IMG/VR virus record: IMGVR_UViG_3300044971_001831 | Span: 1 to 29,620 of that record | From: a virus | DNA: 29,620 nucleotides | Reading direction: 5' to 3' (one strand) | Shown here: piece after piece, positions 662-27,723 of the stretch | Position numbering within the stretch: the stretch's first letter is position 1 | Layout: every line of letters begins with the position of its first letter | Notes under the pieces: model-generated | Seen by the model: only the letters and a program-made list of their open reading frames with translations | Database searches by the model: none | Told to the model about the DNA's origin: nothing | Made by a program: the position numbers and the translations under genes

Positions 662-1120
662 ATGGCAAATGGAATCACATATGGAATAAATTTTCCTTTT
701 AGAGAATCTTACGTTGGTAAATATTTGGATGTTTCTGATAATACCGATGAGGAAGTTAGAAGTAATTTAATTCATTTATTGTTAACTAGAAAGGGGTATA
801 GATATTATCTTCCTGATTTTGGAACAAGATTGTATGAATATATTTTTGAACCACTTGATGGTCCTACGTTCAGTGAAATTGAGGGTGAGATTAGAGATTC
901 GGTAGAAAAATATATGCCAGGTGTCTTAATAACGAATATTTCGATAACAGATGCTTCTTTAGGTGAGGAAAATAAAGGTACTTATATAAATTCAGATGGA
1001 GAACGAGAATTTAAGGTACAAGGTATTAGTGAAAAAGAACATACCGCAAAAATTAAAATAGACTATAGAGTCACAAATCAAGCCTTTGAAAGTAGTGATT
1101 TTGTTATTATCAATATTTAA
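662..1120 (+). CDS. Baseplate wedge protein, T4 gp25-like (GPW/gp25 family)
   Basis: This 152-aa protein has the hallmark of the GPW/gp25 family: a segment at about residues 40-65 reading LLLTRKGYRYYLPDFGT, followed by RLYEYIFEPLDG, then an amphipathic helix and a beta-strand end. In T4 and related contractile machines (R-pyocins, type VI TssE), gp25 sits in the inner baseplate wedge and helps start sheath assembly. Length is close to the family norm (T4 gp25 is 132 aa), with an insert at residues 100-125 (GEENKGTYINSDGERE). The gp6-like gene starts 6 bases downstream, the same 25-6 order as in T4, which supports the call. No Shine-Dalgarno sequence is seen. Confidence 0.88.
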   Translation: MANGITYGINFPFRESYVGKYLDVSDNTDEEVRSNLIHLLLTRKGYRYYLPDFGTRLYEYIFEPLDGPTFSEIEGEIRDSVEKYMPGVLITNISITDASLGEENKGTYINSDGEREFKVQGISEKEHTAKIKIDYRVTNQAFESSDFVIINI

Positions 1121-1126
1121 TAGTAT

Positions 1127-2965
1127 ATGGCTGAGAAAAAAATATCCTACACAACCAGAGATTTTCAGGGAATAAGAACTGAGTTAATTAACTTTACTCG
1201 AACTTACTATCCTGAATTGGTTCAAAACTTTAACGATGCTGGGGTTTTCTCGGTGATGTTAGATTTAAATGCTGCCGTTACGGATAACCTACAATTTAAT
1301 ATTGATAGGAGTATTCAAGAAACGGTATTGCAATTTGCTCAACAAAAATCTTCAGTTTATAATATCGCTAAGACTTACGGGTTAAAAATTCCGGGTCAAA
1401 GACCTTCAGTGGCATTAGTTGATTTTTCAATAACGGTTCCTGCATTTGGTGATAGAGAAGATTTAAGATATTGTGGTATCCTTAGAAGAGGATCGCAAGT
1501 TAGCGGTGCGGGTCAACCATTTGAAACCGTTTATGATATAGATTTTGCTTCGGCAATCAACTCTGAAGGAACATTAAATAGATTAAAAACTCCTAATTTT
1601 GATGCTAATGGTAATTTATTAAATTATACAATCACAAAAAGAGAAGTTGTTGTTAATGGATTTACTAAAGTTTTTAAAAGAGTTATTACACCAAATGACG
1701 TTAAACCATTCTTTGAATTATTCTTACCTGAAAAAAATGTTTTGGGAATTACGAGTGTTATATTAAAAGATGGAACACAATTCAATACAATACCAAATCC
1801 ACAAGAATTTTTAGGTTTGGAAAATAGATGGTATGAGGTAAAATCACTAGCGGAAGATAGAGTTTTTATTGAGGATCCAACAAAAGTTTCAGATCAACCT
1901 GGTGTAAAAGTTGGAAAATACATATTAACAAATACTAAGTTTACATCTGAATATACACCTGAAGGTTATTTAAAAATGACATTTGGTGGTGGTAATGTTT
2001 CTGCTGAAGAACAACTTAGGGATTTTGCAAGGTCAGGAAAAGGATTTGATTTAAACAAATATTCGAATAATTTAGCTTTAGGTTCAGCATTAAAATCGAA
2101 TTCAACTTTATTCATTCAATATAGAGTTGGTGGTGGACAGGCAACAAACTTAGGTATTAATGTTATCAATCAAATTGGTACGGTATCATTTTTTGTTAAT
2201 GGTCCTTCAGAAAGTGTTAACAGATCCGTTATAAACACATTAAGTTGTAATAACGTAACTGCAGCAATTGGAGGAGCAAACGCACCAACACTTGAAGAAG
2301 TTAGAAATATGGTTTCATATAACTTCTCAGCTCAAAATAGAGCGGTAACTATAAATGATTACGAATCTATTATTAGAACAATGCCTTCTCAGTTTGGTGC
2401 ACCTGCTAAAGTTGCGATTACCGAGGAAAATAATAAGATAAAAATAAAAATGTTATCTTACGATACAAGTGGTAATTTAACTGACACGGTTTCTAATACT
2501 TTAAAAAGTAATGTGGCAAACTATCTATCTAACTATAGAATGATTAATGATTACATTTCAATTGAAAGTGCAAATCCTATTGATTTATCTGTTAATGTTG
2601 ATGTTGTATTAGATGCTAGTCAAAACCAAGGGGCGATTGTTTCTAAAATTATTGATATCATTACCACATACTTTAGTCCTACAACAAGACAATTAGGCCA
2701 AAATGTTGTTGTATCTGAGTTAAGAAGATTGATACAAGCCGAAAATGGAGTGATCAGTATTTCGGATATGGAGTTCTTCAATAAAGTTGGAGGTCAGTAC
2801 TCGTCAAATCAAACATCTCAAAAATATTCAGATCCTGCGACCAAACAAATACAATTAATTGCGGATACTATTTTTGCTGAACCAACACAAATTTACCAAA
2901 TTAGATTCCCTAACAAAGATATTAACGTTAGAGTTATCAATTTAAGTACAGTTAATTTCTCCTGA
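1127..2965 (+). CDS. Baseplate wedge protein, T4 gp6-like / Baseplate J family
   Basis: This 612-aa protein resembles T4 gp6 in length (660 aa) and N-terminal layout: a stretch of about 90 residues with FNDAGVFSVMLDLNAAVTDNL, then a region aligning wedge-like helices with SSVYNIAKTYGLKIPGQRPS, the usual entry into the Baseplate_J fold. A later block, EVRNMVSYNFSAQNRAVT followed by NDYESIIRTMP (about residues 385-425), is the conserved segment typical of gp6 and BaseplateJ proteins. The C-terminal half has alternating strands and a last helix pair (VVVSELRRLIQAENGV). gp6 forms the baseplate ring that rearranges on sheath contraction. It ends in TGA, one of only two TGA stops here. It is directly after the gp25-like gene and is probably co-transcribed with it. 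Confidence 0.87.
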   Translation: MAEKKISYTTRDFQGIRTELINFTRTYYPELVQNFNDAGVFSVMLDLNAAVTDNLQFNIDRSIQETVLQFAQQKSSVYNIAKTYGLKIPGQRPSVALVDFSITVPAFGDREDLRYCGILRRGSQVSGAGQPFETVYDIDFASAINSEGTLNRLKTPNFDANGNLLNYTITKREVVVNGFTKVFKRVITPNDVKPFFELFLPEKNVLGITSVILKDGTQFNTIPNPQEFLGLENRWYEVKSLAEDRVFIEDPTKVSDQPGVKVGKYILTNTKFTSEYTPEGYLKMTFGGGNVSAEEQLRDFARSGKGFDLNKYSNNLALGSALKSNSTLFIQYRVGGGQATNLGINVINQIGTVSFFVNGPSESVNRSVINTLSCNNVTAAIGGANAPTLEEVRNMVSYNFSAQNRAVTINDYESIIRTMPSQFGAPAKVAITEENNKIKIKMLSYDTSGNLTDTVSNTLKSNVANYLSNYRMINDYISIESANPIDLSVNVDVVLDASQNQGAIVSKIIDIITTYFSPTTRQLGQNVVVSELRRLIQAENGVISISDMEFFNKVGGQYSSNQTSQKYSDPATKQIQLIADTIFAEPTQIYQIRFPNKDINVRVINLSTVNFS

Positions 2966-13153: not shown

Positions 13154-16100
13154 ATGGCAGTAACAAGATATACGTGTCCACCTCAGTCTGCAAGCGGTCA
13201 AGGTACTTTTTCTGACAACTTAGTTGGTTTACAACTTGTTGATGGGGGAGGTTTTACCCAAGCAAATTTTGAATTTACTACTTCTATTACGGAAAAACAA
13301 GACAGAAACTTTTCAATCGGGGCATTTTCTGAACCTATTTCTTTAGATAGTTTAAATATTGAAAATGTAACGGAATCAAGAGTTCTTCAGGCTAATAATT
13401 TCAGAGTTTATCCTAATTTTGATTTATCGCAGGTTACTAATTTTACGTTATATGGGTCTTTAGTAAAAAGAATATCAACATCGGTATCTCACATTATTAA
13501 CTTTTTCCCTGGTGGGATTGAAATTACTTCAAACCTACCTAACTTCAGTACTAGTGAGACTGCAACAAACATACAATATGATTCTGTTGAAAATGAAACA
13601 TCATTTGATGTGTACATTAATGCGTTAAGAAACCCATTTGATATTGACTATAGTTCAAATGCGAATAGAAATTTTGAATTACTTGAAATTGAAGTTTCTT
13701 CTTTAAGAAATTTTACATCAAATTATGCAAAATATTCATTATTTATAAATGATGGTGAATACCCTTTTATATTCTTTAGTCCGTCAAACAACACGTCTAC
13801 AACATTAAGTTTTGTTGTAAAAGGTAATCCTTTTTCTGGTAATAACATATCTTATGACACATTGGTCATTAGACCTAATGATATGTATGTTAATAAGACA
13901 TTCAACGAATCTATGGATGAGGTTGAACAATTTTTGTTAAATAGATCAATAACTCCGATTTATACATCAACGTTTACCGTTCCAAGAGAGAATGAAGATG
14001 GGACAATTTATTTGACTACTCAAACAATCACATTCCCTAAAAATGGGGTATGGAATTTGGATATTACATCAGCGGCTTTTGATAATTACCTTTTAACATT
14101 AAATGAATTTGCCGCAAATTTAGATTCATATAGAACTAATTTAATATCACGTTTTTTAACTACAGGGGCAATTAAAGAGTTTGATACTCCTGATCAAAAA
14201 ATAGAAAAAGTTTTACAAATTTATGGTAGAAGTTTCGATGAAACTAAAAAGTTTATATCGGCTTTATCAAACATGAATAATGTTAACTATAATATTAAAA
14301 ATGATATACCATCACAATTACTAAAGAATTTAGCAATGACGTTAGGTTGGGACACAAATATATCCCCAATCACAAACGATCAATTATTAGATTCTGTATT
14401 TGGTACTGGTAGTAACAATTTTAGTGGTTTATCGGTTGGTATGACACCTGAGGAACTTAACTACCAATACTATAGAAACTTAATATTAAATTCGGCTTAC
14501 TTATTCAAATCTAAAGGTACTAGAAAATCAATTGAAATATTATTAAGATTGATTGGGGCACCTGAAGCTTTAATTGAATTTAACGAATACATTTATATTG
14601 CGGATCAAAAGATTAATATACAAGAATTTAATGGTCAATACGCTCAATTATCGGGAGGTACTTACATACAACAATTACCAACATTAGACACTACAGATAT
14701 ATTCTCAATACAAGGGCAACAATTCACAGGTTTTACTACAATTAGTGTTGTAACAGATGTTAATGTATTCCCTGAAGATTATCCGATAGACGACTTTGGT
14801 TATCCTATGATGCCTGCGGTTAGTGATTCATACTTCTTCCAAATTGGAGGAGGTTGGTTCGAATCTACACCACAACATAGGATGCCTGAACAAGTGGATC
14901 TAACTAATAGTGTGTTTACTGGTAGTAATCCTAATTATCAAACTACGTTATTACCATTCAATTATGGTGAAGAATATCTACAAAGATATAGAACATTCCC
15001 TTATATGAATTTAGGATATAAATTACGTAGAGTTGTTGATAATAAAAAAAGTTGGACAGATACTGAAAATGGTTTAAGAGAAAATTACGATGGTAACTTT
15101 AATGCTTATTATCCTGTTAGTGACGATAAGTTAGTTATTAACGTTAAGAATGTTGACATATTTATGAATCCGGCTCAAGGGTTGGTTTATGATGTATGGA
15201 CGATGTCAAGACAATATAATTACCCTATACCTAATGAAGGTTTAAACTATATTGAACCAACACGATGTAATCCAACACCAAACACTCCATACCCACAAAG
15301 AGGTGGGATTGATTGGACTGAGATTAATCCAAAACCTAAAGAAAAAACATTTTTTGAATTTGCCCAAACTTTTTGGCATAACATGATTAATGTTAGAAAT
15401 AGACAATTTATAACGGATGGTAAAACGGGGGGTTACCCAACTCTTCAATCTATCTACTGGAAATACTTAGAATCAGGTCAAGCAATTAATGTACCTAACG
15501 ATAACTTTACATATCAAACAATGATTGATTATGTTAATGGTTTAGGGACTTATTGGATAAAATTGATTGAACAGATGGTACCAGCTACCACAATATGGAA
15601 TACGGGTACCAAATTAGAAAACTCAATCTTCCATAGACAAAAGTTCGTATGGAGAAGACAAACAGGTTGTCAACTTGTGCCTGTACCATGTGACCCGTGT
15701 TATGCGGTTGGTCAATTAATACCATTTGATTGTCCGATACAATCGGTTAATTGTCCTATTTATCCTTGGGGATCAAGTCCATCTGTTAATTCATTTGGAG
15801 TTGTCTTAGGTCAGGTTTTGACTACATATTTGGATAATAATGGTTATGATTTAAATAATGATTGTTTGGTTAATACTTTAACATCCGAATGGTATGTTGA
15901 TGTTAGATTAAATGGGAATCAAATTATAGATTATAAATTCTTTGATGGATATGGATATTCTGTAAGTGGAACAAGTTTCCCAACACAGACTAATTGGTTA
16001 AACGCTTTATACGACTCATTACCTCAATTAATTGATAGTGGGTTAACATTTAATATTGATGAAACAACAAATGTTGTGACGATTTATAATAATAATTGTA

Positions 16101-16171
16101 TGACTTTAAGTGGTACCGATAATTTAGAATTAAATGTGGGAATAAATTTTGATATAATATGTAATCAATAA
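13154..16171 (+). CDS. Large tail/baseplate structural protein (1005 aa) with cysteine cluster and a C-terminal domain shared with the next gene
   Basis: The start lies two bases after the previous stop, with an A-rich leader and no Shine-Dalgarno sequence. Around residues 430-490 a segment SAYLFKSKGTRKSIEILLRL, then IGAPEALIEFNEY, resembles a helix motif (Y-x-S-K-G-T-x-x-x-I) seen in long tail proteins of large phages. That resemblance is from memory and tentative. Residues about 835-870 hold a cysteine-rich linker (TGCQLVPVPCDPCYAVG, then FDCPIQSVNCPIYPW). The last 115 residues (VDVRLNGNQI through VVTIYNNNC to NFDIIC) align by eye with the end of the downstream SprB-repeat protein, suggesting a common trimerisation or attachment domain. 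The TAATG overlap with that gene implies coupled, stoichiometric production. A tail spike or baseplate hub-to-fibre connector fits, but is inference. Confidence 0.68.
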   Translation: MAVTRYTCPPQSASGQGTFSDNLVGLQLVDGGGFTQANFEFTTSITEKQDRNFSIGAFSEPISLDSLNIENVTESRVLQANNFRVYPNFDLSQVTNFTLYGSLVKRISTSVSHIINFFPGGIEITSNLPNFSTSETATNIQYDSVENETSFDVYINALRNPFDIDYSSNANRNFELLEIEVSSLRNFTSNYAKYSLFINDGEYPFIFFSPSNNTSTTLSFVVKGNPFSGNNISYDTLVIRPNDMYVNKTFNESMDEVEQFLLNRSITPIYTSTFTVPRENEDGTIYLTTQTITFPKNGVWNLDITSAAFDNYLLTLNEFAANLDSYRTNLISRFLTTGAIKEFDTPDQKIEKVLQIYGRSFDETKKFISALSNMNNVNYNIKNDIPSQLLKNLAMTLGWDTNISPITNDQLLDSVFGTGSNNFSGLSVGMTPEELNYQYYRNLILNSAYLFKSKGTRKSIEILLRLIGAPEALIEFNEYIYIADQKINIQEFNGQYAQLSGGTYIQQLPTLDTTDIFSIQGQQFTGFTTISVVTDVNVFPEDYPIDDFGYPMMPAVSDSYFFQIGGGWFESTPQHRMPEQVDLTNSVFTGSNPNYQTTLLPFNYGEEYLQRYRTFPYMNLGYKLRRVVDNKKSWTDTENGLRENYDGNFNAYYPVSDDKLVINVKNVDIFMNPAQGLVYDVWTMSRQYNYPIPNEGLNYIEPTRCNPTPNTPYPQRGGIDWTEINPKPKEKTFFEFAQTFWHNMINVRNRQFITDGKTGGYPTLQSIYWKYLESGQAINVPNDNFTYQTMIDYVNGLGTYWIKLIEQMVPATTIWNTGTKLENSIFHRQKFVWRRQTGCQLVPVPCDPCYAVGQLIPFDCPIQSVNCPIYPWGSSPSVNSFGVVLGQVLTTYLDNNGYDLNNDCLVNTLTSEWYVDVRLNGNQIIDYKFFDGYGYSVSGTSFPTQTNWLNALYDSLPQLIDSGLTFNIDETTNVVTIYNNNCMTLSGTDNLELNVGINFDIICNQ

Positions 16172-18348
16172 TGGGAGTAATAACAATATATGATTATTCT
16201 GTTACGGGCGATTGCTCAAACGTAGGTGCGGGTGAAGTAACATTTAAAGTGACGGGTGATAGCCCTACTTGGTATGTTGTTCAAACCCCAACACCTAATA
16301 ACCCACTACCAACTTCAGGTTTAACGGGTTCGGATACCTATTATTTTTCTGGATTAACGGGAGGATCGTACTTTTTAAATGTATATGACTCAAGTGGTGA
16401 ACCACCAACACTTCGGGAAGTTTCCATTTATATATCGACAGGTACTTGTGTTTCTATAGAAACTATGGACACAACTTGTGGTTTTGATAATGGAGGTATA
16501 ACCGCTTACACCCAATCTGTTTATAATTACGCTTCATTTTACTTATTCGATATTGATCACAACTACGTTAATAGTGGTACTTCAATTACAAATGAATATG
16601 TTTTTCCACCACTTTCTGCTAACACGTATTATGTAATTGCAGATGATGGAGGTGGTTGTTCAGGTAGAAGTGAATCTTGTATTATTGGAGACTCAACACC
16701 ATTCACATACGGTTATTATGTTGTGAATAATGGTAGTTGTATATCTGGAAATACGGGTGGGACAGGTAAAATATTTTTAACAGGATTATCCGATCCAAGT
16801 TTATATACGATTAATTGGTTAAATGGTATAACGGGTCAATCAGGTCCTAACGTAACTGGATTAACAGAAGGTGTTTATAACGTGCAAGTTATTGATCAAA
16901 ATGGTTGTGAGTCAAATAAATCAATTATAATATCGGGAACTCAACCATTAGGTATTGCGGGATATATGACATATCCTCCAGATTGTTTTGATAATAACGG
17001 AGAGATAACAATAATTGTAACGGGAGGTACTGCGCCTTATTATATTGGATGTTCTAATGGTGATAGCGCAATAATATTTGAAAATGAATATACATTCACT
17101 GGTTTATTCTCAGGAACTTATACTTTTAATATTATAGATGCTGGTATTTGTACAGTGTCGGGAGCTACTTCAATAAACACACCAAATAGTTTTAGTGTTG
17201 TTAGTGTGACTAGCTCAAACTCGATGTGTAACGATAATTCGGGATCTGTAAGTATTATATTAAATGGGTCTGGATCTTACACGTATAGTTTAACGGATTC
17301 GTTAGATAATACAACAATTTATGGACCAACAACTAATATAACTCAACAATTTAATACCTTATCTTCGGGTGATTATGATTTAATAATCACGGATGGAGTA
17401 TGCACTTACGAAACTACCGTTACCATAGATAATACTGAAAAGTTTACAATATCTGCAATAACTCAAAATACAACTTGTGGATCAAATAACGGATCTATCC
17501 AATTATTTGCAAGTAGTGGTGGTACATTACCTTATAGTTATCAAATAACAGGGTTTCCACCTTCATTAACAACAAGTTTTAATAATTTGGCTCCTGGTAA
17601 TTATGTTGGAACCGTTACGGATAGTACGGGGTGTTCACAAACTTTAAATTTATATGTGAATAACTCTAATGGGGTACAATTTGATTTTGTTGTGACTCAA
17701 CCAACAAATGGTAATAATGGTGAATTATCAACATTAATATTCAATGGGTCTCCAACATTTACATATAATTGGAGTTCTAATGTTAATGGACAAACGGGGT
17801 CAACAGTGACATCATTAAGTGCTGGTACGTATAGTTTAGAGATTATAGATTCAAGTGGGTGTACTTTAACTAAAACGGTAGACCTTTTTGGGAAAAAGAG
17901 TTCAATAAGTTACCAAACATATAATATATGTAATGACGACTTCCAAAATACCGGTATATTAGGTAAACGAGGTATGCAACAAATGTTATTAGAAGGTTTT
18001 AATGATTTAACTCTTGATGATGTTGGTTGTGTAATATCAACCGCCGATTTTATTGCCGATGTTACCGTCGATGGTGAGAACGTCCAACAATCATTTTATG
18101 TGTCATCAGGTTTAACTGATTATCCTTCTGATTATACTTGGGGTCAAACTTTAATTGATGTTTTAGAAAGTTATGATGGTGTAAGTAAAGTTGAAATTGA
18201 TTACACCACAAATGAAATTAAGATCTATAATAAATGTGTTGAAGAGGCGGGATGTGTTGGTGGTACAACATATTATTTATCGGATGCAAATATTATAATC
18301 AACTTAAAATTGGTATATAATATTTCTTGCGTTCAGTGTAACATTTAA
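16171..18348 (+). CDS. SprB-repeat fibre/adhesin-like virion protein (725 aa)
   Basis: The protein is a chain of about seven repeats of 70-85 residues. They begin near residues 1, 100, 187, 270, 350, 434 and 511. Most follow the SprB pattern: a Cys and Asn/Asp-Gly start (TTCGFDNGG, PPDCFDNNGE, NTTCGSNNG), a central Pro-Tyr or Tyr strand, then L-x-x-G-x-Y-x-V-x-V-x-D-x-x-G-C (LTEGVYNVQVIDQNGC, LSAGTYSLEIIDSSGC). SprB repeats are known from the giant gliding adhesin of Flavobacterium johnsoniae and other Bacteroidota surface proteins. There is no signal peptide or type IX sorting domain, so this is not a secreted host-type adhesin. Residues about 575-725 form a distinct C-terminal domain like that of the preceding gene. 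The TAATG start and the tail operon argue for a tail fibre. Receptor binding is inferred. Confidence 0.8.
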   Translation: MGVITIYDYSVTGDCSNVGAGEVTFKVTGDSPTWYVVQTPTPNNPLPTSGLTGSDTYYFSGLTGGSYFLNVYDSSGEPPTLREVSIYISTGTCVSIETMDTTCGFDNGGITAYTQSVYNYASFYLFDIDHNYVNSGTSITNEYVFPPLSANTYYVIADDGGGCSGRSESCIIGDSTPFTYGYYVVNNGSCISGNTGGTGKIFLTGLSDPSLYTINWLNGITGQSGPNVTGLTEGVYNVQVIDQNGCESNKSIIISGTQPLGIAGYMTYPPDCFDNNGEITIIVTGGTAPYYIGCSNGDSAIIFENEYTFTGLFSGTYTFNIIDAGICTVSGATSINTPNSFSVVSVTSSNSMCNDNSGSVSIILNGSGSYTYSLTDSLDNTTIYGPTTNITQQFNTLSSGDYDLIITDGVCTYETTVTIDNTEKFTISAITQNTTCGSNNGSIQLFASSGGTLPYSYQITGFPPSLTTSFNNLAPGNYVGTVTDSTGCSQTLNLYVNNSNGVQFDFVVTQPTNGNNGELSTLIFNGSPTFTYNWSSNVNGQTGSTVTSLSAGTYSLEIIDSSGCTLTKTVDLFGKKSSISYQTYNICNDDFQNTGILGKRGMQQMLLEGFNDLTLDDVGCVISTADFIADVTVDGENVQQSFYVSSGLTDYPSDYTWGQTLIDVLESYDGVSKVEIDYTTNEIKIYNKCVEEAGCVGGTTYYLSDANIIINLKLVYNISCVQCNI

Positions 18349-18362
18349 TTTTAATAATTTTC

Positions 18363-18396
18363 TAATATCTTTTACTTTATGGAAGATATTATTTTT
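18363..18396 (+). promoter_or_regulatory. Hairpin around the glycosyltransferase start codon
   Basis: TAATATCTT (18363-18371) is the exact inverted complement of AAGATATTA (18383-18391), giving a 9-bp stem whose 11-base loop contains the ATG at 18379. A run of five T follows at 18392-18396. It could limit initiation or act as a weak terminator for readthrough from the fibre gene. It is AT-rich, so stability is modest and the role is uncertain. Confidence 0.35.
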
Positions 18397-19353
18397 GTAA
18401 CCGCACAACCTGATGTACCATATTTTCATTGGCAGGTAAAACTTTATACTCATAATTTTATTGAGAAGGGAATTAAACCTTGTCAGATTCATGTTATATT
18501 TGGGTTACAGAAGAAACAACAACCATCACAAGGTGCTTTGGAATTATGTGATTATGGGTTTAATGTTCATTTTTATGATGACGATAGAGATATTAAATCA
18601 TACATCCCAAGTATTAAACCATATTTAATTTTTCAATGGTTAAAAGAGTATCCTGAAAATGGGAAGTTATTCTTTTTACATGACTCAGACATCATATTCA
18701 ATAAATTACCTGATTTTAGTAAATTACTCAATGATGATATTTCATATTTGTCTGACACCATAGGTTATATTGGGTATAATTACATTAATGATTGTTGTGT
18801 TAGGTATGAGAAGGCACACCCAACGTCAAGTAAAGGGCAACTATTACAAGAGATGGCTGACGTTATTGGGATTGATGTTGAGTTGATTAAAAAAAATCAA
18901 GAAAACTCAGGCGGAGGACAATACCTCATCAAAAATACGGATCCATTATTATGGGGTAAGATTTATGATGATTGCACACCATTGTATAACCAAATGTTAG
19001 ACTACCAAAGGAGGTTCCCAATAAATCCTGGTCAAATACAATTTTGGACTGCGGAAATGTGGTCGTTATTATGGAATATGTGGAATTCGGGTTATGAAAC
19101 AAAAATAACAAAAGAGTTAAATTTTTCTTGGGCAACCGACGACATTAATATTTATAATGAAAATCCAATATTACACATGGCAGGAGTTACCGACCAGTTA
19201 AGACATACGAAATTTTATAAAGGAGATTTCATAAACAGAAATCCAATTGAGGATTTAAAAAACGATGAAAATTTCTTTAATTATGTGGATGAAAATAGTT
19301 CTACGATTAAATATATTGAAGTAATGAAGTCATTTTTGGAAAAAAATAAATAA
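18379..19353 (+). CDS. GT-A-fold glycosyltransferase, resembling peptidyl Ser/Hyp glycosyltransferases
   Basis: This 324-aa soluble protein starts MEDIIFVTAQPDVPYFHWQV, the usual first strand of a GT-A nucleotide-sugar transferase. LFFLHDSDIIFNKLPDF carries D102-S103-D104, the metal-binding DxD. Further on are a TAEMW motif (residues 224-228, E226 a candidate catalytic or acceptor-site residue) and a late histidine H266 in HMAG, which would be the third metal ligand. The spacing D-x-D-x-I-F-x-x-x-P, then E-M-W/Y, then H recalls plant and algal serine/hydroxyproline O-glycosyltransferases. It sits between fibre genes and its neighbours carry Thr/Pro-rich stalks, so modification of virion proteins is an attractive inference. 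Alteration of host surface glycans is the alternative. It lacks the TATTTAT box of the virion genes. Confidence 0.68.
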   Translation: MEDIIFVTAQPDVPYFHWQVKLYTHNFIEKGIKPCQIHVIFGLQKKQQPSQGALELCDYGFNVHFYDDDRDIKSYIPSIKPYLIFQWLKEYPENGKLFFLHDSDIIFNKLPDFSKLLNDDISYLSDTIGYIGYNYINDCCVRYEKAHPTSSKGQLLQEMADVIGIDVELIKKNQENSGGGQYLIKNTDPLLWGKIYDDCTPLYNQMLDYQRRFPINPGQIQFWTAEMWSLLWNMWNSGYETKITKELNFSWATDDINIYNENPILHMAGVTDQLRHTKFYKGDFINRNPIEDLKNDENFFNYVDENSSTIKYIEVMKSFLEKNK

Positions 19354-19370: not shown

Positions 19371-20690
19371 ATGGGAACTCAACCGATAACAATAAAACCT
19401 GTAAATGAATGTACAATAGTTACGTTATTTCCAATGACGGCTATATGTAATAATGTTAACCCAACTAACCCACAATCATATGATGGGTCAGTTAGTTTAA
19501 TGATTAGTGGTGGAACTCCACCGTATAATATTATATGGGAAAACGGGGGTTCAGGTCCAACAAAAGACAATCTTGGTATTGGAGATTATAAAGCAACGGT
19601 AGTTGATTTTTATGGTGATTTTACCGCATATACAACTTGTAGTTTAACGGCTACGACAACAACTACGTCAACGTCAACGTCAACTACGACATTACCAAGT
19701 TATGAAGATCTATGTATGTATTTCTATGAAAGTGCTGGATCTAACATTGAAACTCACCAATTCTTATTTAATGGTTATTTAAATGGAAAACCAACTTGGG
19801 TATCTGATGACGACGAGTATTCAATTTATTGGAGTACTGGTACAACAAATCAATGGTTAGTCGATGGATGGGATAACGGGATTATTTATAATTCAAATAC
19901 TTCTTCATTACCGTTAACAGGATGGCAATTCTTGGGTGGAAGTTATTCAGGATTCTATACCATTTCAGTTAATGAAGGAAGTTGTGTTCAAAACGTAACT
20001 ATTAATTTATCTATAAGTTCCCAATCACCAACCTGTGGTGGTAACGGTAGTATAATAGTAAGCGCAAATGGAGGAAGTCCAGCTTATCAATATTCTGTTA
20101 ATGGAGGAACCACTTATCAATCAAGTCCTGTATTTAACAATTTAACAAGTGGTATGTATTCGGTTACGGTTAAAGATTCGAATAATGTAACAACTACTCA
20201 AACAATTACATTATCACCACCACCGCCAAATCAAACTTATCAATTAACATTAGCGTTAAGTGGTCCAAATGCATTTAATGTTACCGTTTCACCGGCATTA
20301 CCTGTCGGAGCTAGTATAACTTATACTATAAAACACGAAAGTGTGTTTACGACCGCTCCGTCAACTACTGTGGCGGTATACAATAATGTTGTAACGATTA
20401 GTATCAATGGAGTTCCGATTACGACTCCAACACCTATATTAACTCCAACAACATCATTTAACCCTTGTAATTCAGGTTCGTTCTTTACTAATACAAATGT
20501 TACCACTTGGCCTAATTTAACGTTTAACTCAACCACTACGGTAACTGGTACATATACCAACACGGTAAATCCAATTACTCCTTTGGCGGAATGTTATTCA
20601 GTTGACGCAACAACGGCAATATATATTTCAAGTGCAACATTAAACAATTGTAATTGTTGTAACCTAACAATAATAAATCCAAAGAGATAA
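19371..20690 (+). CDS. Mosaic fibre-like protein with two SprB-like repeats and Thr-rich stalk (439 aa)
   Basis: Domains in order: a SprB-like repeat (about residues 25-90, YDGSVSLMISGGTPPYNIIW), a Thr/Ser-rich linker (residues 93-108), a Trp- and Gly-rich domain (about 110-205, including IYWSTGTTNQW and LTGWQFLGG) that recalls lectin-like modules of phage proteins, then a second SprB-like repeat (about 218-282, SPTCGGNGSIIVSANGG, then LTSGMYSVTVKDSN). Next come a Pro run, a beta-rich Thr/Val segment, and a short cysteine end (NCNCCNLTI). The linker DNA contains the 6-base tandem repeat TCAACG, which could change length by slippage in frame. There is no signal peptide. Between the glycosyltransferase and another fibre gene, it likely forms part of the host-recognition apparatus, and its linker is a plausible O-glycosylation substrate. 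Confidence 0.68.
   Translation: MGTQPITIKPVNECTIVTLFPMTAICNNVNPTNPQSYDGSVSLMISGGTPPYNIIWENGGSGPTKDNLGIGDYKATVVDFYGDFTAYTTCSLTATTTTTSTSTSTTTLPSYEDLCMYFYESAGSNIETHQFLFNGYLNGKPTWVSDDDEYSIYWSTGTTNQWLVDGWDNGIIYNSNTSSLPLTGWQFLGGSYSGFYTISVNEGSCVQNVTINLSISSQSPTCGGNGSIIVSANGGSPAYQYSVNGGTTYQSSPVFNNLTSGMYSVTVKDSNNVTTTQTITLSPPPPNQTYQLTLALSGPNAFNVTVSPALPVGASITYTIKHESVFTTAPSTTVAVYNNVVTISINGVPITTPTPILTPTTSFNPCNSGSFFTNTNVTTWPNLTFNSTTTVTGTYTNTVNPITPLAECYSVDATTAIYISSATLNNCNCCNLTIINPKR
19667..19684 (+). repeat. 6-base tandem repeat in Thr-rich linker
   Basis: GTCAAC is repeated in tandem about three times (ACGTCAACGTCAACGTCAAC region), encoding alternating Thr-Ser. A change of unit number keeps the reading frame and adds or removes two residues. 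Confidence 0.6.
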
Positions 20691-20719: not shown

Positions 20720-23263
20720 ATGAGCTATATATTAAAAAATACATCAGGTTTAGTTAACACTAGAATTACCGATACCGGAAGGTTAAAATTATCACAAGGT
20801 AATTTTAATATATCCTATTTCCAAATTGGGGATAGTGAAGTGTCATATAATGAATTACCAAACACTTATAACCAATTTAATAGTGTGGTTTTAGAACCAA
20901 GTTTTAATAGTCAAAATAGTGCAGGTATACCTGAATCAAACAAACAAAACGTTAAGTATCCATATTATGTGGATGATAATAATAGTAACACTTATGGTAT
21001 TCCATTTATGGATTCCGTTATTGAACCTGTTTATAACAGAGCACCATTAAGAGGGTTTTTTACGGGTAACACAACCGCAAGTACGATTAATTATAGTGCA
21101 TTTACGGGATCTAAATATGTTGTAACATCTAACTACATTGTTGATATGGCAACATTAAATGGAACAAATCAAATTAAAATTATATATGATGTGTGTGATC
21201 CGACAAACACTAGAACACCTAATGTTGGGGATTTCATAACAATATATTATGATGGTTTAGGAAAATTAGATTGTTCTTGTTATGACCTACCAACACCAAC
21301 ACCTACGGCAACCATAGGAACAACCCCAACATTAACAAATACACCAACTGCGTCAAATACGAATTATAATCCATGTGCGTCACCGACACCAACACCGACA
21401 CCATCGGCAACACCGTGTTTGACTCCATCTAGTAGACCTGTATGTCCTTTACCGCCTGATCCTTCATGTGTTAAACCGGCACATTCTTGTTTCCCTATTT
21501 TAACATATAGAATAATAGATATATGTGAGGATAATGTTACATTAGATAGACCTACACCTAATTATGTTGGATTAAGTACATTTTGTTTTGGTAGAGTATT
21601 AGTATACCCACCAAACATGACAACAATCTATGATAGTATTACACCAAGACCTCATTGGGCTGACGATGTGATTAATTATGAATCAATATGTGATATTGAT
21701 CAGTTTGATGTTAAAGTTTGGAACATGAACATTCCTTGGACCGAAAGTCCAGCTGGTTTAAGATCAACTGAGTTTGAAGATTATACTTATTTTGGATCTA
21801 TAGATTATATTGGTAGTAAAGAATATTTCGGATACAACTCAACTTCGGGTCAAACTGACACAAGTTATACATATTATTACAATTCATTTGATGAGATTGT
21901 ACAGGTTAAACCTGAAGAACAAAAAGCTATTGCAATTATACACTATACCAATCAAACTATTGATTTCTTCTATGGTGAGAAATTTGCGTTAGAACCTTAT
22001 GATAATTCAAATCCTGATGATACAACGGGTCAGGCAAGAAACTTTAAATTACATATCCCTACATTAATGTGGCATAAAAATCCTGAATGTTGTTATGGAC
22101 AAACATTTTGGGTTGATCCTCCAGGATTTGATGGTAAAGACTTATTCCAAGTTCAACACATTAAGTCAACTAAGAATAGTGATATGAACCAACCTGGTAT
22201 ACGTTACTATCACTTATGGGACACTAACGCAAATGCAGATGGATTACCAAGTAGAATTGGTAAAGTATTCCCTGATAGTAAATTAATTATTATTGATGAT
22301 GAGGAGATAATTGCGGCATTATCATATAAGTCAAATCGAAATTGGACATTAACGGCACCTCAAGTATCGTTAATAACTCCGAACACTTGTGGTTTAACAA
22401 CCGCAACAACAAATGGTATTTTAACTGGTAATGGTGAAACTATGTATGTTACTTATCGTTTAAGTAATCCAAGTAATTTTACTAATTCATTACATTCTAA
22501 CTATTACTCTAAAATTGTGGGTAATAATAATGATTGTAATCCCGATACATCTAAAAATGTGGCGGTTAGATTTGGTGCTGAATTTAAATGTTTAACTCAG
22601 CCATCGTATAATCCTATTACGACTACATCAACAACGTATTCACCTTTAACGACAACAACCACTTATTACCCAATAACTACAACAACAACTTTCCATCCTC
22701 TAACCACAACGACTACCACGCTATGTCCTACGGTTTGTGATACACCAAATGGGTTCTTCGCCACTACTTTCCAAGTAATTGCACAAAAAGTGGTTACAGG
22801 TCAAAGACCTGATCCATCTAAATGGAAAGTTATTGATTATACAAGTTCATTATCTACAACTACGGTTAATGGATATATTACTGAGGATGGGTTAACAGGT
22901 ACTACATTTGTTATAACACCTGATCTTTATAATAACGCACCATACTATAATCTTAATAACTACATACCATTAACACCACTTGGTAACACATCACAAAAAC
23001 TTAATTTTGGTGATGAATACTTTTTCTATGGGGCATTTGAAAGTGATATTCAGGCAACAATTTATGAGATGAGGTATAAGGTTAATTTAAGTTTTGCTGA
23101 GTTCCAAACCACAACAAATCCTACATGGAAAAAAGGAGGAAATTCTTACATTACTGAGATTGCGTTACTTGATAGTAATAAAGATGTTATGGTTATTTCT
23201 AAGATGCAATCACCAGTCTTAAGGCAGGGTATCCAACAGTTCGTAGTCAAGTTAGATTTGTAA
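20720..23263 (+). CDS. Mosaic virion/fibre protein with Pro-Thr and Thr-rich linkers (847 aa)
   Basis: The N-terminus (MSYILKNTSGLVNTRITD, then SQGNFNISYFQIGDSEVSY) looks like a virion attachment domain: a compact, conserved-looking start without signal peptide. A Pro-Thr-rich linker with cysteines spans residues 191-247 (PTPTPTAT, SPTPTPTPSATPC, then CPLPPDPSCVKPAHSC). A large Tyr/Asp-rich globular domain covers about 250-630. A second linker at 632-668 repeats the unit Y/F-x-P-L/I-T(4-6) four times, ending LCPTVC. The C-terminal 175 residues form another beta-rich domain. The multi-linker layout suggests an extended, flexible fibre or whisker. The Pro-Thr linker DNA is an inverted match to linkers of the minus-strand fibre gene at 24011-27502. 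The exact virion role is unknown. Confidence 0.66.
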   Translation: MSYILKNTSGLVNTRITDTGRLKLSQGNFNISYFQIGDSEVSYNELPNTYNQFNSVVLEPSFNSQNSAGIPESNKQNVKYPYYVDDNNSNTYGIPFMDSVIEPVYNRAPLRGFFTGNTTASTINYSAFTGSKYVVTSNYIVDMATLNGTNQIKIIYDVCDPTNTRTPNVGDFITIYYDGLGKLDCSCYDLPTPTPTATIGTTPTLTNTPTASNTNYNPCASPTPTPTPSATPCLTPSSRPVCPLPPDPSCVKPAHSCFPILTYRIIDICEDNVTLDRPTPNYVGLSTFCFGRVLVYPPNMTTIYDSITPRPHWADDVINYESICDIDQFDVKVWNMNIPWTESPAGLRSTEFEDYTYFGSIDYIGSKEYFGYNSTSGQTDTSYTYYYNSFDEIVQVKPEEQKAIAIIHYTNQTIDFFYGEKFALEPYDNSNPDDTTGQARNFKLHIPTLMWHKNPECCYGQTFWVDPPGFDGKDLFQVQHIKSTKNSDMNQPGIRYYHLWDTNANADGLPSRIGKVFPDSKLIIIDDEEIIAALSYKSNRNWTLTAPQVSLITPNTCGLTTATTNGILTGNGETMYVTYRLSNPSNFTNSLHSNYYSKIVGNNNDCNPDTSKNVAVRFGAEFKCLTQPSYNPITTTSTTYSPLTTTTTYYPITTTTTFHPLTTTTTTLCPTVCDTPNGFFATTFQVIAQKVVTGQRPDPSKWKVIDYTSSLSTTTVNGYITEDGLTGTTFVITPDLYNNAPYYNLNNYIPLTPLGNTSQKLNFGDEYFFYGAFESDIQATIYEMRYKVNLSFAEFQTTTNPTWKKGGNSYITEIALLDSNKDVMVISKMQSPVLRQGIQQFVVKLDL
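21290..21312 (+). repeat. Pro-Thr linker repeat, inverted partner of 25377-25399
   Basis: CCAACACCAACACCTAC (21290-21306) is identical to the reverse complement of 25383-25399. With one mismatch the match extends to 23 bases. Both copies lie in the same codon phase (Pro-Thr) of two convergent fibre genes. Confidence 0.7.
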
Positions 23264-23315: not shown

Positions 23316-23924
23316 ATGAGAACACCAATTAAGAATACACCCAAAGTGTTGGGGTTAGACATTTCAACTAAAACAATAGGATGGGCACTTTTTGATATTA
23401 AAACTAAAGAGTTATTAGAATTAACTCACGTATCTCCGAGACCAAAAAACAAAGATACTGAAGAAAATAAAATGTTAGAGTTAATATTAAAATCTGAGGT
23501 TTTTAAAACTAAATTAGAAGACTATAAGAAATTAGGTATTGTTAGTGTTATTATTGAAGAACCTTTATTAAATTCAAATTATGTCTATACAATCCAAACG
23601 TTATTAAGATTTAATACATTAATCTGTAAGACAATTTATGATATATTGGGTATTGTCCCTGAATTCATTTCCACTTACAACTCAAGAAAGTTTGCCTTCC
23701 CTGAGTTAGTACAAGAAAACGATAAAAAGAAACACGTTCTATTTGGAGGTCTTCCTAAGGACATTGATAAGAAAATGATCATATGGGAGTTGGTTGCTAA
23801 AAAAGAGCCTCAGATCCAATGGCAATACACTAGAAACAATACTTTAAAGAAAGAGAACTTTGACCAAACAGATGCTTATACTTGTGTATTAGGTTATATG
23901 AGAAGTAAGGAAATTTGGGAATAA
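23316..23924 (+). CDS. RuvC-like Holliday junction resolvase (RNase H fold)
   Basis: This 202-aa protein shows the RuvC-type metal-site residues in order: D15 in VLGLDISTKTIGWALFD (first strand of the RNase H fold), E81/E82 in VSVIIEEPLL, and D183/D186 in the final helix DQTDAYTCVLGY. Length is near that of bacterial RuvC (about 170-175 aa) with an insertion around residues 140-175. RuvC-type enzymes cleave four-way DNA junctions and in phages resolve recombination intermediates and branched concatemers before packaging. The gene has its own leader without the TATTTAT motif, so it may belong to an earlier expression class. It is followed by two hairpins and faces a minus-strand fibre gene. 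An unusual feature is its isolation from other replication genes by the fibre cassette. Confidence 0.85.
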   Translation: MRTPIKNTPKVLGLDISTKTIGWALFDIKTKELLELTHVSPRPKNKDTEENKMLELILKSEVFKTKLEDYKKLGIVSVIIEEPLLNSNYVYTIQTLLRFNTLICKTIYDILGIVPEFISTYNSRKFAFPELVQENDKKKHVLFGGLPKDIDKKMIIWELVAKKEPQIQWQYTRNNTLKKENFDQTDAYTCVLGYMRSKEIWE

Positions 23925-23977: not shown

Positions 23978-24007
23978 AAATATCGTCTTTTTAGACGATA
24001 TTTTTTT
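23978..24007. terminator. Bidirectional terminator between convergent genes
   Basis: A perfect 11-bp stem (AAATATCGTCT at 23978-23988 with AGACGATATTT at 23993-24003) closes a TTTT loop. It is followed by a T run on the plus strand and, read from the minus strand, by the A/T-rich tract 23971-23980. It lies 4 bases beyond the stop codon of the minus-strand fibre gene, so it can end both transcripts. Confidence 0.85.
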
Positions 24008-24010
24008 GCT

Positions 24011-27000
24011 TTATACGTTTAGATTTACCGTTAAACAATTTGGTACTTGAGATGCTCCGAATACAGAATAACCACCCCCTCCGGTTTGAATTGTCTGAAC
24101 GTAGACTGGTGTGTGAGGAGCATTTAGTGGAATATTGTAAACATTACCATCAACATTTGTTATATAAAGTAAACCTGATGATTGGAAAATACCGTATGGG
24201 TATGGTGTAAAGTTTGTTATTTCCACATCAACTTCTAATGTCCCTGTTGAATAATCATATTGACTTAAGAATGTTTTAAATGTAGGGTTGTACGATACTG
24301 AAGTCACTAAAACCTTGCCGGTTGTCGTTAATAATAAATCTCCCGAAACTACTCTATCCGATGATAACGTGAATAATATTGTTGGAACCGCATTATTTGT
24401 TGTAATGTCAAGTTCAATTATTTGGGCTGGTATAGTACTTCCATTTGAACTTAATAATTTAGTGTTTGATACGGCACCCATACCACTACCTAACGGATAA
24501 GGTTGTGTAATATCCCTATTAAATGTTAATGACCAAGGAGAAAGTGTAATATCATATTCTTTTATTACTCCACCACTAGTAACCCAAAGTTTATTTTGAG
24601 TGTGTGCAATATCTGTTGAAATTGGTATTACACCTAATTCTGTTGAAATATTAGTTGACAAGTCATAAGAGTAATAATATGGACTATTAGTATTAAATAT
24701 TAACGAACAAGTAGGAACATAAACTCCTTGTGTTGGTGTAGGTGTGGGTGTAACTGATGTTGAGGTTGGTGTGGGAGTTGGATTACAAAGACCAATATTA
24801 GTTATTGAGATGAAACTTGAAGTTGTTGTTGGAAGTGTAGATGAACATATTGTTGTTGATCCATATCCGTCAAGAACTCCGTCAACAGGTAAACCAGTAA
24901 TACATGATGTATATGAGAATGTTTGAGTTTGTATGTAACTATTTTCGATTAAATAGTTATTACAAGTTGGTAGAGGTGATGAAGCCGTTGGTGTTGGTGT
25001 ACTAGTTAATGTTGGGGTAGGTGTTGGGGTATTTATGATAACACATTGTGAACACGCTCCGTCAATCAATTTACCAAGTATACTCGTTAAATTAATAGTA
25101 TTAACTCCTGCGATATTACTAACAAATCCTTCGTATGATATACAAGTTGAAATACCATCAACAAATGATTGATATACGTAACCCTCAGCCGGTGTACCAC
25201 CAAATGGATCTAATACTACATCCGTTGTGTGATACAACATTCCTGACACACAATCTTTGAAACGTTTACTTCCGTTACATCTGATGTAGTCATCAAATGT
25301 ATTGAATACCACTGAACCATCAAAATTACAATTATATTGAGGTGATGCGGTTGGTGTTGGTACCATTTTACCTCCAGTTGCGGTAGGTGTTGGTGTTGGA
25401 GTGTATACAACTACATTTATTGACATTGCTCTACCACCACATAATTCAGTTGCGGTAGGTGTTGGGGTTGGTGTTAGTGTTTTTGTAGGTGTTGGTGTGG
25501 GTGTTGGAGTTATAGGTAAATCACAATCAAACGCCGCCTCAAAAGATATTGTTTGACAATATTGAGTTGGAGTTGGTGTAGGCGTAGGACATACTCCTGG
25601 ATTGAAAAACCCATCACATAAATCGGGACAATCATTGTTACATGGTGACGGACCAAATAATAAACATGGGTCTGCAAAGTCAGTTGATAAACACCAACAA
25701 TTTTCGGTAGGAGATAAGAATATTAGTAAATTATTTGTTTCACCCGTCCAAAATGTTTGATCATTATATGTACCCGCACTATAGTAAGTACCATCATAAA
25801 AAATATTACCTGTAGAAACACAGTAAGATTCAAACGGGCATTGAGGTGGTTCTTCATTACAAACACTACAATCATTAAATTCAGATTCAACTGTAAGAGG
25901 TGTTAATGTTTCATAATTAGATGTTTGACCACTATATTCCCAACATCCACTAACTTCTTCAAATGTATAAACATTACCTAAAACAACACCTGAAGTTGTA
26001 TTACTAAATAAACTATTTGATGGTTGTTGAAAACCATCAAGAAATATATCATAAAATTGACTAGAACTTTGAGATGCGGTTAAGTAACCTATTCTTGTTG
26101 ATCCGGTAAATTTTAATAATTCATCACCGACTGCGTAATTTGGAGCTCCGGTCCAAGTATTTATATCTGTTAAATCAAATTGAAATAATAATGTATATGG
26201 GTTTGGTTGACCTGGTTGAATAGCTCCAGAAAATAGACCCATTCTACTTGTTGTATATATTTCAATTATATTACCGGTTTTAACTATTCTAACTCTAACT
26301 TGTCCTTTTGTATTATAATCCCCATTTCCAAATGGAGATGTTACACCAGACATTACTTGAGATGATGTTGTGCTACCGTTGTTAAATGCGTAAATATCTT
26401 GACCCGAATTATAATAAACGAAAGCTCGACCAAGATTTCCTGGTTGTGAATTTCCATTAAATGATAATGATAGGTAGTCAGTAACTTCAGGATTAGTACC
26501 CAAACCTTTATTAGCGGCTAAAACGATACCTATGGTATCATCATCTGAATCAGTACTACCAATAGTTATTTCGTGGGTATAATCACCGTACGCACAAACA
26601 CTATAAAACCCATTAACTAAACCTGAGTTTAGACTACATTGAATCATTTTTGGGACACCACCAGCATCATTAATTTTATTACTAGCTAAAACTACGGTAT
26701 TAGTTAAACCACTTACAGTATATTGTGTTGAGGTTAAGTTAGTTGTAGACCAATTTGTCGATGTTGTTAACCCTTGTGCTGCGGTTGGATTCCCTAAAGG
26801 TATACTAACATTCGCGGTTGGGTTAAATGTTGTCCATACTTGGACTGAGGTACCATAAGCACGAAAAGCGGTAACAAATTTATTTATAACCGTATTATAA
26901 TAAAATGTATTTAAAGGGTATGAAGATGGTAAACCTGGTCCAACATCTTCACCTTCAGTCATTGGAATATTTAATTCACCTAAATAATATGTGTTGGTTG

Positions 27001-27502
27001 CTCCTGTGTAAAAATAATATGATGGGTTATTAGTTATTATACTTCCGTCAGGTTGTAATCCTGTATTTTGTAAAGGAATAGGACTGAAAAGAATAGTTCT
27101 TCCTGCAAAGAACGCAAACCTGTTCCAGGTATTAAAAATATCGTCAGGATCATCACTAGGACCGAACTCAACAAAACCATTTTCACAATCGACTACTTCA
27201 CCACAACCCACAAAATAATCAACAGGGGGTAAAGTTGTAGTTGTTGTGGTTGTTGGACATAAATTAGGGTCACCAACAACGGTACCACCACTATAGTAGT
27301 AAAAATAACCTAAATACGAAAAATAAAATGGTCCTGATATTAAGTCTGGACCATTACAACCAGGTGCGGAATAAAGTGAATATGGTGTGGGAAAAACAAA
27401 ATATGTGTCATCACCCCAAACCAATACACTATCTAAAATACTTTCGTCGCATAAACCTTCGGATGTTGCACCCGTATATATTAAAAAACTACTACACGCC
27501 AT
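24011..27502 (-). CDS. Large fibre protein with five Pro-Thr stalks, lectin-like middle and propeller-like C-terminus (1163 aa)
   Basis: The frame opens at 27532, but the ATG at 27502 (MACSSFLIYTGATSEG) overlaps the stop of the upstream gene as TAATG, the coupling used throughout this window, so I choose it. Order: N-terminal Cys/Tyr/Gly-rich domain, a Thr run (about residues 82-90, CPTTTTTTTLPP), a beta-rich region, and about residues 290-490 resembling a concanavalin/thrombospondin-type lectin sandwich (STDSDDDTIGIVLAANKG). A cysteine-rich segment (about 555-640) follows. Pro-Thr stalks lie near 635-646, 661-687, 697-721, 823-845 and 905-925. The C-terminus (926-1163) shows at least four spaced motifs of type Y/L-D-x-S/T-T (YDLSTN, EYDIT, ELDITTN, QYDYSTG), like blades of a beta-propeller. 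There is no signal peptide. Likely role: long receptor-binding fibre with glycan-binding tip. Domain calls are by eye. Confidence 0.68.
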   Translation of the reverse strand: MACSSFLIYTGATSEGLCDESILDSVLVWGDDTYFVFPTPYSLYSAPGCNGPDLISGPFYFSYLGYFYYYSGGTVVGDPNLCPTTTTTTTLPPVDYFVGCGEVVDCENGFVEFGPSDDPDDIFNTWNRFAFFAGRTILFSPIPLQNTGLQPDGSIITNNPSYYFYTGATNTYYLGELNIPMTEGEDVGPGLPSSYPLNTFYYNTVINKFVTAFRAYGTSVQVWTTFNPTANVSIPLGNPTAAQGLTTSTNWSTTNLTSTQYTVSGLTNTVVLASNKINDAGGVPKMIQCSLNSGLVNGFYSVCAYGDYTHEITIGSTDSDDDTIGIVLAANKGLGTNPEVTDYLSLSFNGNSQPGNLGRAFVYYNSGQDIYAFNNGSTTSSQVMSGVTSPFGNGDYNTKGQVRVRIVKTGNIIEIYTTSRMGLFSGAIQPGQPNPYTLLFQFDLTDINTWTGAPNYAVGDELLKFTGSTRIGYLTASQSSSQFYDIFLDGFQQPSNSLFSNTTSGVVLGNVYTFEEVSGCWEYSGQTSNYETLTPLTVESEFNDCSVCNEEPPQCPFESYCVSTGNIFYDGTYYSAGTYNDQTFWTGETNNLLIFLSPTENCWCLSTDFADPCLLFGPSPCNNDCPDLCDGFFNPGVCPTPTPTPTQYCQTISFEAAFDCDLPITPTPTPTPTKTLTPTPTPTATELCGGRAMSINVVVYTPTPTPTATGGKMVPTPTASPQYNCNFDGSVVFNTFDDYIRCNGSKRFKDCVSGMLYHTTDVVLDPFGGTPAEGYVYQSFVDGISTCISYEGFVSNIAGVNTINLTSILGKLIDGACSQCVIINTPTPTPTLTSTPTPTASSPLPTCNNYLIENSYIQTQTFSYTSCITGLPVDGVLDGYGSTTICSSTLPTTTSSFISITNIGLCNPTPTPTSTSVTPTPTPTQGVYVPTCSLIFNTNSPYYYSYDLSTNISTELGVIPISTDIAHTQNKLWVTSGGVIKEYDITLSPWSLTFNRDITQPYPLGSGMGAVSNTKLLSSNGSTIPAQIIELDITTNNAVPTILFTLSSDRVVSGDLLLTTTGKVLVTSVSYNPTFKTFLSQYDYSTGTLEVDVEITNFTPYPYGIFQSSGLLYITNVDGNVYNIPLNAPHTPVYVQTIQTGGGGYSVFGASQVPNCLTVNLNV
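25340..25600 (-). repeat. Cluster of Pro-Thr coding repeats (GTAGGTGTTGG units)
   Basis: The unit GGTGTTGG, coding Pro-Thr on the minus strand, recurs many times. A 19-base sequence CAGTTGCGGTAGGTGTTGG occurs as exact direct copies at 25375-25393 and 25447-25465. Further units lie near 24730-24780, 24995-25035 and 25485-25515. Exchange between copies would keep the reading frame. Confidence 0.75.
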
Positions 27503-27723
27503 TATACACTTATATTTTCTATTATCGTACAATCATTATCATCAATCACTTTAACCACAAAATCTGTTAATGAGGAAAAAATTGATGGAATCATAAAAGA
27601 ATATGGTAAGTTACCACTATTAATAGTTGACACATAAATACAAGTTGTGTATCCTGTGTCACACACGTAAACATCATAAGGTGATATTCCGGTAATAGAA
27701 GTGATTGTAATGTTTGTACCCAT
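27502..27723 (-). CDS. Small single-domain SprB-like protein (73 aa)
   Basis: The protein is about one SprB-like repeat long. It starts MGTNITITSITGISPYDVYV and ends FVVKVIDDNDCTIIENISV, matching the Y/F-x-V-x-V-x-D-x-x-x-C close of the repeats in the 725-aa fibre protein. Two further cysteines (YVCDTGYTTC) are in the first half. The MG-x-x-I-T-I start is shared with the virion genes at 16171 and 19371. Its TAA overlaps the ATG of the large fibre gene, so it leads a two-gene minus-strand operon and may help that fibre fold or attach. It has no signal peptide or membrane segment. Function is unknown beyond this. Confidence 0.65.
   Translation of the reverse strand: MGTNITITSITGISPYDVYVCDTGYTTCIYVSTINSGNLPYSFMIPSIFSSLTDFVVKVIDDNDCTIIENISV

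Follow-up and report, generated by a model that had tools for sequence, protein, structure and literature searches.

A seven-repeat SprB-family protein in the tail module of an environmental phage is a likely stalk of a modular tail fibre

crAss-like phages carry tandem BACON domains in tail-associated proteins, and one lineage of these domains is described as the product of within-phage duplication, distinct from the bacterial domains (PMC6949934). Grappling hook protein A (GhpA) of Aureispira is a very long type IX secreted protein that forms heptamers (PMC11205867). Hoc of phage T4 consists of a string of immunoglobulin (Ig)-like domains followed by an alpha/beta domain, this C-terminal domain being bound to the virion (PMC10385173). 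For SprB repeats in a phage fibre we found no description in the portion of the open literature available to us, most subscription journals lying outside this scope. Here we analyzed a virus record of 29,620 bases (IMG/VR record IMGVR_UViG_3300044971_001831, hereafter the window) and, within it, gene I (16171..18348, + strand), which encodes a SprB-repeat protein of 725 amino acids (aa), P0001. It is likely that this protein forms the stalk, constant and proximal to the baseplate, of a modular receptor-binding tail fibre in a large contractile-tailed phage probably infecting Bacteroidota.

The reading frame of gene I is intact and begins with ATG, and its start overlaps the stop of the preceding gene H in the sequence TAATG. 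The protein was searched with Pfam, in which the curated cut-off of PF13573 (SprB) is 28 bits. It matches this family with 44 bits (E = 1.7e-11) over four stretches, and none of 14 control genomes gives a match above the cut-off. A sequence-only reading of the window had proposed about seven SprB repeats sharing an end pattern, and this observation holds. The end motif L-x-x-[GN]-x-Y-x-[hydrophobic]-x-[VIA] is present seven times (residues 62, 148, 231, 312, 397, 473 and 549), i.e. with a spacing of 76–86 residues, versus a mean of 0.03 and a maximum of 2 in 2000 shuffles of the same protein, the pattern having been composed with the sequence in view.

Taken singly, only three of the seven repeats match the family in Pfam at E <= 1e-3: R4 (residues 256–337; 16936..17181; 32 bits at 16975–17061), R5 (residues 338–421; 17182..17433; 18.4 bits at 17206–17301, E 7e-5) and R6, the best SprB match (residues 422–499; 17434..17667; 36.2 bits at 17455–17553). 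The other four are tied to the remaining repeats via profile-profile comparison (hhalign). R1, a beta-sandwich domain and the least conserved repeat (residues 1–93; 16171..16449), is linked to R3, R4, R6 and R7 with probabilities of 80–95%; R2 (residues 94–173; 16450..16689) to R4, R5 and R6 with 88–98%; R3 (residues 174–255; 16690..16935) to R4–R7 with 95–99%; and R7 (residues 500–576; 17668..17898) to R3–R6 with 98–99%. Altogether 17 of the 21 repeat pairs score 79–99%, the weak pairs being R2/R3 (2%), R1/R5 (42%), R1/R2 (65%) and R2/R7 (67%). The assignment of each repeat to SprB is thus direct for R4, R5 and R6, and goes through profile comparison for R1, R2, R3 and R7.

The last ~150 residues, which the sequence-only reading had not mentioned, form a separate alpha/beta domain (residues 577–725; 17899..18345) that is conserved in the group. 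It scores at most 1% against any repeat by hhalign. An AlphaFold model built from a 16-row alignment (mean predicted local distance difference test, pLDDT, 78; predicted template modelling score, pTM, 0.35) contains seven Ig-like beta-sandwiches, a low-confidence hinge at residues 575–596 and the alpha/beta domain at residues 600–724. The best Foldseek matches of the model in the PDB are pieces of the Bacteroidota adhesin GhpA (E 1e-18 to 1e-16, best 1.1e-18), followed by vertebrate Ig proteins. In the VIA listing GhpA is level with generic Ig/FN3 proteins (Z 9.3 among 10.8–8.6), and we therefore restrict the statement to an Ig-like fold, the SprB family being assigned by sequence. By sequence (phmmer) the protein has no match in the PDB. 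No BACON domain was matched either: Pfam at E <= 10 gave only SprB, DUF4926 and Por_Secre_tail. Weak Pfam matches to DUF4926, Por_Secre_tail, TSCPD, and PKD in 11019–12197, were set aside, all being under their cut-offs. In the PDB, profile A1 gave only low-complexity matches, one to a neck-whisker protein (E 0.024), and three further ones (E 0.04–0.31) that were likewise set aside.

The window holds a tail module. It contains a gp25-like baseplate protein (662..1120, +; BLASTP E 2e-10 to a frame of the baseplate assembly protein of Flavobacterium phage immuto), a gp6-like baseplate wedge protein (1127..2965, +; phrog_219, E 1e-25), several large unassigned proteins, then genes H to M on the + strand and gene N on the − strand. 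Gene H (13154..16171, +) encodes a 1005-aa protein with an end domain at about 15731–16168. It has no match in the PDB and no clear match in PHROG, and its label as a baseplate/tail-type protein consequently rests on context. Its conservation among relatives (63–91%) is above that of gene I.

To follow the locus in other phages, 80 related loci were found with gp6, and the contigs of 37 of them were searched for PF13573. Fourteen contigs are positive and these are all the contigs that reach the locus, the 23 negative ones ending earlier. The SprB gene starts 13.2 kb downstream of gp6, and every contig that extends at least 15.4 kb past gp6 is positive (13 in all); the 14th is a contig of 296 kb in which the module runs across the contig ends. 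Both ends of this contig (G013; loci L128 and L136) lie inside gene H and have ~174 nt in common, inexactly. There is no exact end overlap and the IMG/VR class is linear; it is probably a near-complete genome of ~296 kb. A scan of IMG/VR with gene I yielded 475 relatives, of which 80 were kept for locus comparison. Gene H is directly upstream of gene I in 79/79 of these loci that have upstream sequence. The proposed coupling of the gene to tail genes is supported. The gene I proteins are 72–77% identical to that of the window in near relatives and 41–52% in distant ones. The closed open reading frames (ORFs; n = 75) range from 705 to 1413 aa with one exception, L186, in which an early stop or a frameshift shortens the SprB fibre ORF to 167 aa. 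Gene J follows gene I on the + strand in 53 of the 80 loci, and gene K comes next in 48 of these 53.

As the sequence-only reading had stated, the protein carries neither a signal peptide nor a type IX sorting domain as far as hydropathy, NCBIfam and Pfam can tell. By a crude hydropathy analysis it has no signal-peptide-like start and no hydrophobic core, and such a start is found in 0/16 aligned homologues. NCBIfam gave no sorting-domain match at E <= 0.01, with two control adhesins matching TIGR04131, and Pfam Por_Secre_tail reached 9.2 bits versus a cut-off of 27. These results bear on the idea that gene I is cargo, a phage-carried host adhesin displayed by the infected cell. SprB proteins that start in a signal-peptide-like manner do occur in two huge phage-labelled records, and one of these proteins has a sorting domain. 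The lack of both features in P0001, the lack of the former in its homologues, the stop-start overlap with gene H and the adjacency kept in all 79 loci make this idea hardly credible for gene I, and we rejected it for want of the start and the sorting domain.

The evidence that carries the stalk assignment comes from the ends of the homologues. They are constant over residues 1–724 and diverge afterwards, with extensions of 0–691 aa that belong to differing families. After residue 724 some have a Pro/Thr linker with a tip, some are followed by a connector and a separate distal fibre, and some, like the protein of the window, have nothing more. The tips comprise DUF285/BspA repeats in L116 (E 3e-96) and L131 (E 2e-46) and a weak leucine-rich match in L117. 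The separate distal fibres have YadA-like, collagen-like and C1q-like parts (named by eye) and are preceded by a connector of ~100 aa. In the 73 of 80 loci usable for this count (seven with less than 600 nt downstream were dropped), a separate distal fibre accompanies 3/22 Pro/Thr-extended proteins versus 38/51 other proteins (Fisher p 1.6e-6, uncorrected for kinship). Because a constant part is followed by variable ends, gene I most likely encodes the constant stalk in a receptor-binding fibre of modular build. In addition, the gene I profile distantly matches gp98 of Cellulophaga phage phi19:1 over R6–R7 (E 4.8e-10 among the ORFs searched), and the record of gp98 describes a virion structural protein identified by tandem mass spectrometry.

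In such a fibre, the seven Ig-like SprB-family domains would form an extended flexible rod that mainly keeps the tip away from the tail, the C-terminal alpha/beta domain placed after the rod may serve docking or multimerisation, and the variable part beyond residue 724 would be the most likely contact with the host receptor. Attachment to the baseplate, and the orientation of the fibre that goes with it, are presumed. For the phage of the window the role of the tip may fall to gene N, whose end tip occurs on the SprB fibre of another phage.

The C-terminal domain of gene I is probably common to the end of gene H. The two ends align by BLASTP with 29% identity over 78 residues (E 3e-5 to 5e-5, in a single comparison) and by hhalign with 92% probability over 95 columns. 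A docking or multimerisation module is our guess for this domain. Connectors of ~100 aa (L128:4083–4409, L135:7785–8096, L138 and L139) end in a motif like FQDGDxFxFMDxExxxFQ, and a similar tail of 22–24 aa is, by eye, fused to the SprB fibre ends of gene I in L176, L181, L182, L184 and L228. The end motif of the connectors is perhaps a socket for the distal fibre.

To assess the age of the array, 76 repeats were placed in one tree; they came from nine of the 16 aligned phages, two bacterial-type adhesins and one gene K repeat, with R1 excluded. Across the nine divergent phages a single clade unites the copies of R2, and the same holds for R3, R4, R5 and R7, with R6 unresolved; the adhesin repeats fall together in a group apart. 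These positional clades indicate that the seven-repeat array was fixed before the divergence of these phages; repeats at the same position are orthologous throughout the group, and any capture from a host would thus be ancient. The GC content of gene I and its GC at third codon positions (GC3) are those of the neighbouring genes. A recent capture was rejected on the grounds of positional orthology and ordinary GC and GC3, which weakens the suggestion of the sequence-only reading that host adhesin modules had been captured, insofar as a recent event was meant. One of the two adhesins taken as “host” in the tree lies in the phage-labelled record LR756502.1 (L127:13825–18834); the start of this SprB protein is signal-peptide-like, and its type IX sorting domain is confirmed. 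In LR745206.1 (L152:5077–7272) the SprB protein has a signal-peptide-like start and, by eye, a sorting-domain-like C-terminus. Both records are huge and phage-labelled, and the two proteins are adhesins borne by phages, or else the records contain bacterial DNA.

The same tree bears on another explanation, the stronger one put forward by the sequence-only reading, in which the repeats bind the partners of the host SprB or its moving gliding filaments, and the phage would thereby hold on to the gliding machinery or be carried by it. We know of no partner of SprB repeats, and we count this against it. The presence of a SprB-family fold in a probable Bacteroidota phage would suit this explanation, as does the report that gliding proteins matter in phage adsorption, SprB and RemA having been proposed as phage receptors (PMC13288928). 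The repeats are nevertheless old and diverged from those of the sampled adhesins, and the variable, specificity-like region is located elsewhere in the protein. We therefore regard a grip on the gliding machinery as improbable.

A decoration protein like Hoc or a whisker deserves more weight, since T4 Hoc has the same plan. In that case the C-terminal domain would anchor the protein and the Ig-like domains would point outward, sticking weakly to cells or polymers, and gene I would not encode the main receptor-binding fibre. Besides the domain order, the homologue L121, one of two scanned, matches phrog_2973 (Hoc-like decoration) via its Ig repeats (E 8e-7), and another SprB protein weakly matches whisker and Hoc-like proteins (E 0.009–0.09). 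A PHROGs search with P0001 itself gave no Hoc match at E <= 1. In Hoc it is the anchor that is conserved while the Ig domains vary, whereas in gene I the repeats correspond by position from phage to phage, and the end domain does not exceed them in conservation among distant relatives (43% vs 40–50%). Furthermore gene I always stands beside gene H in the tail module, and variable tips come after the end domain. We consequently judge decoration unlikely and the stalk of a receptor-binding fibre the likely function.

Several observations nevertheless weigh against the stalk assignment or parts of it. The virion-bound C-terminal domain of Hoc would suggest the opposite orientation of the protein. 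A pTM of 0.35 means that the overall shape of the protein is unpredicted. Neither an extension nor a separate fibre is found in 10 of the 73 usable loci, and gene I of the window is in the same situation. A search with the profile of the gene I C-terminal domain (hmmsearch) did not find gene H. As regards the host, gp6 matches a Microcystis phage as strongly (25%) as it matches Flavobacterium phages, and in a scan of bacterial genomes with gp6 no contig carries the phage gp6.

The record represents a large lake-water phage whose host probably belongs to the Bacteroidota, judging from the repeat family, the 25% gp6 match to Flavobacterium phages and the match to Cellulophaga gp98. A scan of bacteria with profile A1 returned one protein from a Bacteroidota metagenome-assembled genome (MAG), an ordinary adhesin. 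As gp6 found no bacterial contig in its scan and profile A1 found only this adhesin, we infer the host rather than assign it. No SprB match is found in immuto, which is the nearest among the named Flavobacterium phages. The Microcystis (cyanobacterium) phage Mel-JY01 (L240), with its gp6 at 25%, has a similar gene order, i.e. baseplate genes, large unnamed genes and a primase-like gene. Within the ~42-kb stretches searched in LR756508 and Mel-JY01 the profiles of genes I, H and J are without match.

Downstream of gene I, gene J (18379..19353, +) encodes a GT-A-fold, glycosyltransferase-like protein (phrog_4417). By sequence it has no match in the PDB; by fold there are 35 at E <= 1e-3 (best 4.9e-5), from a model with a mean pLDDT of 70. 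Gene K (19371..20690, +), likewise not mentioned by the sequence-only reading, is a second SprB-repeat gene of 439 aa, with repeats near 19482–19550 and 20016–20114, just above the PF13573 cut-off (28.3 vs 28 bits). It has a Thr/Ser-rich linker and is variable among relatives (34–74% identity). Gene L (20720..23263, +; 847 aa), a conserved neighbour, has Pro/Thr-rich linkers, and gene M (23316..23924, +), RuvC-like (phrog_159 and phrog_827, E 3e-6), ends the block. Gene J thus sits between two SprB genes and near genes with long Pro/Thr linkers, a position that would be compatible with fibre glycosylation.

A hairpin resembling a bidirectional terminator (23978..24003) separates gene M from gene N (24011..27532, −), a putative fibre of 1173 aa with Pro/Thr linkers. 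The end tip of gene N (residues 974–1171; 24020–24613) is found on the SprB fibre of L217 (38.5%, E 2e-29). The J-K-L-M block is inverted in L157 and L222, i.e. in 2 of the 55 loci (of 80) whose orientation is readable, and also in L121, where the orientation of gene N is unchanged. In L121 and L157 the hairpin lies between genes I and M, indicating that it moved with M. Together, the inverted block and the common tip suggest tip exchange by inversion. In L157, however, the Pro/Thr run of the stalk gene leads into the end of an N-type tip in a different reading frame, and a simple reciprocal swap is therefore not demonstrated. Scans of the window for inverted repeats gave imperfect matches (70–92%), the longest in Pro/Thr-coding DNA, with no clean recombination site. 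A fuller scheme, in which the locus is a tip-exchange device where recombination between the converging 3' ends of genes I and N swaps the receptor-binding tips between the two fibres and gene J glycosylates the Pro/Thr linkers, is tentative, and we hold it to be rather doubtful.

These results would mean that the tail-operon fibre of a common group of environmental phages, whose hosts are probably Bacteroidota, is built from the domain that those bacteria use in gliding adhesins, and that this has been so for a long time. With a defined stalk and interchangeable tips, one can ask how phages of this kind locate hosts that glide, and it becomes testable whether the SprB domains serve simply as spacers or contribute to adsorption. 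The inverted J-M block and the tip common to genes I and N provide a lead on tip change in such phages.

Gene I is not wholly new, given that a relative bears the UniProt name “SprB repeat” and that there is the BACON precedent (PMC6949934). This relative, A0A6J5LD72 (“SprB repeat [uncultured Caudovirales phage]”, UniProt name in BFVD; 714 aa), matches with Foldseek at E 4.8e-56 over 746 columns with 31% identity; it evidently belongs to the same protein family, in another environmental phage, and differs in being known here as a database name alone. SprB-type gliding adhesins, which are type IX secreted, share with gene I the PF13573 repeats and the Ig-like fold, the protein of 2861 aa from the Bacteroidota MAG being 27% identical. 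They differ from gene I, which has no signal-peptide-like start or sorting domain, and whose seven repeats of fixed identity lie in a tail operon. GhpA (PDB 9fly, 9flp and 9flw) provides the best Foldseek matches in the PDB at 16–18% identity. For phi19:1 gp98 (phrog_26672) the likeness extends to the homologue L131, which matches the gp98 PHROG at 1.8e-6; gp98 nevertheless has about two such repeats, no PF13573 match, and other N- and C-terminal parts. T4 Hoc resembles gene I in its string of Ig-like domains before an alpha/beta domain, but is a capsid protein. The closest published parallel is that of the BACON proteins, in which a Bacteroidota-associated domain likewise stands in tandem beside phage tail proteins. 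There the domain family is another one and the phages are from the gut, whereas gene I has SprB repeats, an end domain probably common with the neighbouring tail protein, and interchangeable tips.

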